From the NCBI GenBank assembly GCA_008974985.1, contig BFAS01000036.1, positions 1-40,995 of the forward strand: a stretch of 40,995 nucleotides of DNA, in the 5' to 3' direction. The notes under the pieces were generated by a model. That model was not told where the DNA came from. It did no database searches and was given only the letters and a program-made list of their open reading frames with translations. The stretch is from a bacterium MnTg02 (GTDB lineage: Bacteria > Pseudomonadota > Alphaproteobacteria > Rhizobiales > BFAS01). Position numbers and translations under genes: made by a program. Positions 29,184 to 40,203 of this stretch are shown one piece after another; position 1 is the stretch's first letter, and each line of letters begins with the position of its first letter.

Positions 29184-29213
29184 GGGTCGTCACCTCCCAA
29201 CGAGGGCACAATA

Positions 29214-29338
29214 CCAAAGGAAATTATGTTTGACTCATAATTTCCTTTGGCAAGCGCGACTGCGCGGCCCGCACCTTATGGGTGGTCAAGCCTGCGCGGC
29301 GCCTGAACGCCCATCGGTCATTCTCAATGACCGGATGG
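29214..29338. other. Structured dispersed element, copy 1: 15-bp perfect hairpin plus conserved core plus terminal hairpin (candidate ncRNA or palindromic mobile element)
   Basis: CCAAAGGAAATTATG-tttgact-CATAATTTCCTTTGG followed by CAAGCGCGACTGCGCGGCCCGC...GGTCAAGCCTGCGCGGCGCCTGAACGCCCATCGGTCATTctcAATGACCGGATGG; core shared with 40062-40181. Confidence 0.8.
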
Positions 29339-29415
29339 AATAAAGCGAGCATTGGGGCCGCATGCAAGAGCGGAATGTATCCGTTGGCGGTCTTGTGAGG
29401 CGCTTGGCTGTATAT

Positions 29416-39887: not shown

Positions 39888-40061
39888 AGAGGCAATTATA
39901 GCGCTTAAATCCCGATCGCGACATGCGGTGGATGATAGCAGTACCGGGACAGTCCGGCTGGCTAACGTTGCGCCGCTGAATAGGACCGGGTTTGAGCCGT
40001 ATAAACCTGTCAGTAATGCGTGCTTGCCGTGGCATGGCGCAGGATAATGTGGGGCTTTACA

Positions 40062-40181
40062 CCAATAGTCCTTGAGGCAAACTCAAGGACTATTGGCAAG
40101 CGCGACTGCGTGGTCCGCGCCAAATGGCGGTCAAGCCTGCGTGGCGCTTGAACGCCCATCGGTTATTTCTAATGATCGATG
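40062..40181. other. Structured dispersed element, copy 2
   Basis: CCAATAGTCCTTGAG-gcaaa-CTCAAGGACTATTGG followed by CAAGCGCGACTGCGTGGTCCGC...GGTCAAGCCTGCGTGGCGCTTGAACGCCCATCGGTTATTtctAATGATCGATG. Confidence 0.8.
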
Positions 40182-40203
40182 TATTAGACAATTGGAGGTC
40201 TGC

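Follow-up and report, generated by a model that had tools for sequence, protein, structure and literature searches.

A MITE-like element family with a 22-nt pseudoknot motif in the core, present in about 170 copies in the alphaproteobacterium MnTg02

Introduction

Small palindromic repeats are usually regarded as DNA debris that matters only at its ends. Bacterial MITEs such as ERIC, NEMIS/Correia, RUP, Nezha and the MITEs of Coxiella (PMC5896051) are short and non-coding, occur in many intergenic copies and combine terminal inverted repeats and a small target duplication with strong hairpins, and the elements described here resemble them in all these respects. They differ from bacterial MITEs in that the core is more conserved than the ends, in that the duplication is TNA and no partner IS was found, and in that the pseudoknot in the core is common to unrelated elements in other phyla and to ssDNA phages. 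The MITE character itself is of a known kind; what is new is the shared pseudoknot core, an interior of 22 nt that is better conserved than the ends around it.

REP sequences and REPINs with GTAG or CGTC tags are likewise high-copy palindromic repeats located mostly outside genes, and CGTC-type REPs are common in Alphaproteobacteria (PMC3733652). However, REPs are single tagged hairpins of 20-40 bp without a duplication (PMC3733652), whereas the element in MnTg02 is a 125-bp multi-hairpin structure with terminal repeats and a TNA duplication. The CGTC and GTAG REP families were ruled out, as both structure and duplication differ.

Two kinds of structured motif are also similar. STAXI (RF01728) is a small pseudoknot found in DNA-handling and mobile contexts for which action as RNA or as ssDNA is undecided (PMC2864571); at E values up to 10, the STAXI model matched nothing in four element-rich genomes. 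MRSC-65-2 and other mobile or repeat candidates (PMC11109978) are likewise structured motifs in many copies with inconsistent orientation, presumed to be selfish; MRSC-65-2 is one long stem with UYCCGG repeats and without a pseudoknot. Two surveys, in the parts covered here, describe other motifs and not this one, and searching for the motif as text in six forms returned no paper in the literature searched. The suggestion of a sequence-only reading of this DNA that the element might be novel agrees with the absence of any Rfam 15 family above the gathering threshold on the element (window and 14 loci), and permissive Rfam searches gave weak matches only, mostly to hairpin-like miRNA models.

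Results and discussion

Two elements in the window

The window is the whole stretch of DNA that was analysed, 40,995 nucleotides of contig BFAS01000036.1 of MnTg02 (GCA_008974985.1). The sequence-only reading had reported two perfect 15-bp stems with CCAA and TTGG ends, each joined to a common core, and both were found where it had placed them. The elements are present in the ranges it gave and extend beyond them, to 29212-29340 and 40060-40183. The reading missed the hairpin at the 3' end of the element and included neither the terminal inverted repeats and the TNA duplication nor the pseudoknot, where conservation is highest. The features of the two copies are as follows.

29212-29340, + strand: copy 1, whole element, TACCAA...GATGGAA
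29214-29250, + strand: copy 1, 5' hairpin S1, type A, bearing the left terminal repeat
29254-29265, + strand: copy 1, core hairpin H-I, GCGC-GACT-GCGC
29271-29286, + strand: copy 1, core hairpin H-II (region)
29289-29310, + strand: copy 1, predicted 22-nt pseudoknot motif, with a T-to-C change leaving S2 with one C.A mismatch
29312-29340, + strand: copy 1, 3' hairpin S3 and right terminal repeat
40057-40059, no strand: copy 2, left target-site duplication TTA
40060-40183, + strand: copy 2, whole element, CACCAA...GATGTA
40062-40096, + strand: copy 2, 5' hairpin S1, type B
40100-40111, + strand: copy 2, core hairpin H-I, GCGC-GACT-GCGT
40116-40131, + strand: copy 2, core hairpin H-II (region)
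40134-40155, + strand: copy 2, intact predicted 22-nt pseudoknot motif AGCC-T-GCGT-GGC-GCTTGA-ACGC
40157-40183, + strand: copy 2, 3' hairpin S3 and right terminal repeat
40184-40186, no strand: copy 2, right target-site duplication TTA

From 5' to 3', the element consists of hairpin S1, a core comprising H-I, H-II and the 22-nt motif (AGCCTGCGTGGCGCYTGAACGC), and hairpin S3. Copy 2 has a clean TTA on either side, and the flanks of copy 1 (CAA left, TAA right) are a decayed TNA duplication. Copy 1 is located downstream of a GGDEF gene and just upstream of a DsbA-like gene, to which it is antisense, and copy 2 immediately precedes the ribosome-binding site of a gene with a metallo-beta-lactamase fold. 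Both elements are far from chance, given that the core 13-mer with at most one mismatch had 177 matches in the genome versus 9 for its reversed control and that the single-strand folding z-scores of the elements are about -6 to -8.

Copy number and mobility

The 3.6-Mb genome contains about 170 copies of the element family (at least 150). The sequence-only reading had named many copies as what would support it, and a search of its own genome with copy 1 recovered some forty further ones, the core alone yielding more. Once extracted, aligned and bounded, the copies run from TACCAA to GATGGTA, and most are 122-136 bp. They are short, numerous and without coding capacity, and most of 112 copies carry the terminal inverted repeats TACCAAWGG (5') and CCGATGGTA (3'). 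Among the 112 copies in which both ends were located, TNA stands on either side of 67, of which 57 have the same middle base left and right when 24 would be expected (p about 2e-16), as in a target-site duplication. Adjacent units of tandem copies have one TNA in common. The TACCAA...GATGGTA ends together with the 3-bp TNA target-site duplication identify the elements as non-autonomous mobile DNA elements that are MITE-like; judged by the defining features, it qualifies as a MITE, the missing partner excepted. The palindromic mobile element that had been offered as one option is thereby supported by ends, duplication and copies.

Within the IS5 family, the IS1031 group is known to duplicate TNA at its target. 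The likeness to that group concerns the 3-bp duplication, and no transposase with TACCAA ends was found here. The genome has four DDE_Tnp_1 matches, none with TACC ends, and the core-less end-like sites that were sampled were only degenerate remnants or solo ends, with no autonomous element among them. A transposase duplicating TNA, as in the IS1031 group, probably moved the elements in trans.

Several altered arrangements were seen. Head-to-tail tandem arrays of two to four elements are found in this genome (loci L028, L017, L113, L341, and L342) and in others (L204, L212, and L226), and internal-deletion forms occur in MnTg02. Locus L439 has a solo 3' palindrome, TACCATCGGTCAGTCATAATGCCCGATGGTA, at about 926-978 with TCA on either side, as if it had moved alone. 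Loci L134 and L137 (G026) have the same TACCAAAGG and CCGATGGTA ends and a TGA duplication around another interior that lacks the pseudoknot, which indicates that ends and core are separable modules.

Genomic context

In this genome, element sites were convergent, codirectional or divergent in 47, 29 and 5 cases, versus 10, 38 and 21 for element-free neighbouring gaps. Based on gene calls from a home-made codon score and on comparison gaps that are neighbours of elements, convergent placement has an odds ratio of 8 (p 4e-8), and copies avoid promoters. Such strong placement and the very stable hairpins would suit domesticated 3'-end signals kept by the host as bidirectional terminators or RNA stabilisers. 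We consider this improbable, as promoter depletion through selection against harmful insertions would by itself give much the same pattern, elements in other genomes have little such bias, U-tracts are absent, and a simple terminator does not need a conserved pseudoknot. The orientation of the elements relative to genes is mixed, with no consistent direction, and this together with the small placement bias in other genomes makes a role for one host gene unlikely. No replichore or GC-skew orientation bias was found; GC-skew orientation was dropped as a candidate signal, since the effect was weak and its sign differed between two data sets.

Fold of the core

That the core has compensatory changes, as noted earlier from the two window copies, is supported; they are seen in H-I and in both stems of the pseudoknot. 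Pairing in H-I is 100%, and three of its four pairs have double changes. The hairpin GGCG(CYTGAA)CGCC that had also been proposed has to be replaced, since this stretch is the second half of the pseudoknot and its final CC is not conserved outside this genome. The motif comprises pseudoknot stem S1 (GCC/GGC), a one-base loop, pseudoknot stem S2 (GCGU/ACGC) and a six-base loop NNNUGA, with loop lengths of 1, 0 and 6. The UGA of the last loop is nearly invariant, and the consensus reads A-GSC-Y-NCGN-GSC-NNNUGA-NCGN. Because the two stems cross and each has compensatory double changes, the 22-nt motif is predicted from comparative evidence to fold as an H-type pseudoknot.

In pseudoknot stem S1, GGC/GCC has replaced GCC/GGC in Caenispirillum salinarum (L317, L318, and L320) and, separately, in Acidimicrobiales (L391, L392, and L399). 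Starting from GCGU/ACGC, S2 has become GCGC/GCGC in Asticcacaulis (L306, L366, L371, and L376), CCGU/ACGG in Acidimicrobiales (L297, L358, and L398) and ACGU/ACGU in bacterium SZUA-149, with a G.U intermediate in L408. Across 55 distinct 22-mers, 95.8% of pseudoknot cells pair and 13 cells are double-changed versus 2.4 in shuffles (0 of 500); shared descent inflates these counts, several compensations nonetheless being in separate lineages. Pairing was used in part to place one of the 55 rows (L389), on which none of the compensations named above depends. The initial invariance of the 22-mer was a result of exact searching, and the compensated forms come from model matches for which identity was not required.

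The reverse complement of the motif (29289-29310, 40134-40155) resembles a stretch of bacterial 16S rRNA, GCGTAAAGCGCACGCAGGC, at around positions 567-588 in E. coli numbering. This assembly has no 16S rRNA. We think that the resemblance is due to chance, as the compensated variants of the motif would lose the 16S match.

Constraint on core and ends

A plain MITE should need, and conserve, only its ends. Here, the strongest constraint is on the interior, the pseudoknot being more constrained than the ends. The part of the pseudoknot used to find copies (GCCTGCGTGGCGC) has a biased conservation within the genome, which leaves TGAAC alone as the fair comparison. In 127 copies from this genome, TGAAC has 0.8 departures from the majority per site versus 13 per site in S3 and the 3' end, and is therefore about 16-fold less diverged (p about 4e-22). 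Counts of alleles seen once per column were so saturated that they could not tell host-level and element-level selection apart.

Outer stems

The claim that conserved pairing accompanies a changing outer stem is supported, although the changes fall into two main subfamilies and rarer types and do not amount to a guide that is hypervariable from copy to copy. Hairpin S1 is CCAAAGGAAATTATG in type A and CCAATGGTCCTTGAG in type B, the latter often bearing an asymmetric insertion that makes an imperfect long form, and further types such as CCAAGTTTCAATGAG are rare. The perfect pairing of the window stems extends only in part to the additional copies (n = 121), with all 15 pairs formed in 22 and at least 13 of 15 in 69.

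The sequence-only reading had offered a novel ncRNA in which the variable stem would act as a specificity or target region, and a conserved core with varying stems is indeed seen here and in other genomes. We now regard this as very improbable: the stems are subfamilies spread by transposition, specific to the subfamily and not to the copy, elsewhere pairing alone suffices, and the best-conserved part is the pseudoknot of the core. G.T and A.C mismatches over S1 and S3 are equally frequent (59 to 53), so the outer stems carry no RNA-strand signature in this genome. Their pairing looks like a DNA-level property, through either quasipalindrome correction or selection on the palindrome, and a guide RNA thus gains no support from it.

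It is possible, though not probable, that the arms of S1 match through a mutational mechanism, quasipalindrome correction by template switching, and not through selection on pairing. The arms of type B covary, with 23 Watson-Crick double changes versus about 4 doubles of any kind expected, they do so without G.T/A.C asymmetry, and insertions in both arms, such as GGGTCC/GGACCC, occur. However, this mechanism fails for the covarying stems of the pseudoknot, which cross and have only 3-4 bp, and for the replacement of whole stems between lineages; moreover, some double changes are inherited within subfamilies.

Distribution in other bacteria and phages

The 22-mer was present in 7 of 398 genomes of the same order, from five families and including MnTg02, while the reversed control was never found. 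An exact 23-mer, a form that excludes most copies of the MnTg02 family, occurs in 75 contigs of GTDB genomes. Carriers include Caenispirillum, Geminicoccaceae, Kiloniellaceae, Rhodovibrionaceae, Asticcacaulis and Marinicaulis as well as MAGs labelled Acidimicrobiales, Hydrogenedentota and Planctomycetota, whose contig labels may be wrong. Covariance-model searches gave 43 copies in Rhodobium orientis, 69 in C. salinarum, 31 in Asticcacaulis benevestitus, 32 in bacterium SZUA-149 and 19 in an Acidimicrobiales MAG (whose label may be wrong). Judged by eye, the C. salinarum copies likewise have TACC ends and TNA flanks. From one lineage to another, and often from copy to copy in the same genome, the hairpins around the motif are wholly different, yet most are near-perfect. 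The motif is also found in non-coding or intergenic regions of Microviridae that otherwise share little sequence.

We consider it fairly probable that the elements are a non-autonomous mobile family of about 125 bp with a single-strand-folding core of two hairpins and the 22-nt H-type pseudoknot, the latter being an old module that probably binds a conserved factor. The pseudoknot would be common to unrelated multi-copy elements and ssDNA phages, and the outer hairpins would need nothing but pairing. Formed in RNA or in single-stranded DNA, the pseudoknot would most likely bind a widely conserved cellular factor, and the binding would help the element to spread or persist and would be of no service to one host gene. 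More tentatively, the 22-nt pseudoknot may be a hitherto undescribed pan-phylum structural module of single strands, either RNA or ssDNA, and ssDNA phages and unrelated selfish elements may each have kept it for its binding of one universal cellular factor or for an activity of its own.

Action of the pseudoknot as single-stranded DNA and not as an RNA element, for example in signalling priming, replication or single-strand transposition, appears rather unlikely to us. It would be consistent with the motif in ssDNA microviruses, the mixed orientation relative to genes, the lack of a G.T over A.C excess in the outer arms and the GCGAAGC or C-GAA-G loops of several flanking hairpins, loops that are very stable as DNA. 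On the other hand, it sits poorly with the missing replichore or GC-skew bias and with the G.U cells of H-I, which have no A.C counterpart, while pseudoknot variants lean likewise, not decisively. DDE-type TNA duplications do not need single strands either.

Recurrence and constraint point to an undescribed interaction on which many selfish elements may rely, as Alphaproteobacteria, Acidimicrobiales and microviruses all have the pseudoknot, with compensatory changes, and the surrounding hairpins are replaced wholesale. The motif is small enough for direct structure and binding studies and can serve directly as an annotation model for hundreds of repeats that lack an explanation.

Other settings of the motif were observed. 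A second architecture in several alphaproteobacterial MAGs (L189, L191, L199, L226, L252, and L262) has the order GGACGC, a perfect variable stem, AAGGAC(T/A)AGCGCC ATTGA GGCGCGC and the pseudoknot. In Acidimicrobiales (L205, L219, L236, L239, and L256), a CCCC-GGGG hairpin is located downstream of the pseudoknot, followed by a long stem that is specific to the copy and has AAAATCGCGGCGGAGCCGCT as its conserved apex. Among Microviridae, the motif is within long non-coding regions of ON840045 (L270, about 701-724) and PQ007300 (L271, about 701-723) and occurs in further records (OP549868 and relatives). Related viral phage contigs (L272-L275 and L277) bear AGCCTGCGTGGCAACTGAACGC, a loop variant found too in C. 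salinarum (L315). Part of the Acidimicrobiales apex, CGGCGGAGCCG, is also present 3' of the motif in microvirus L270.
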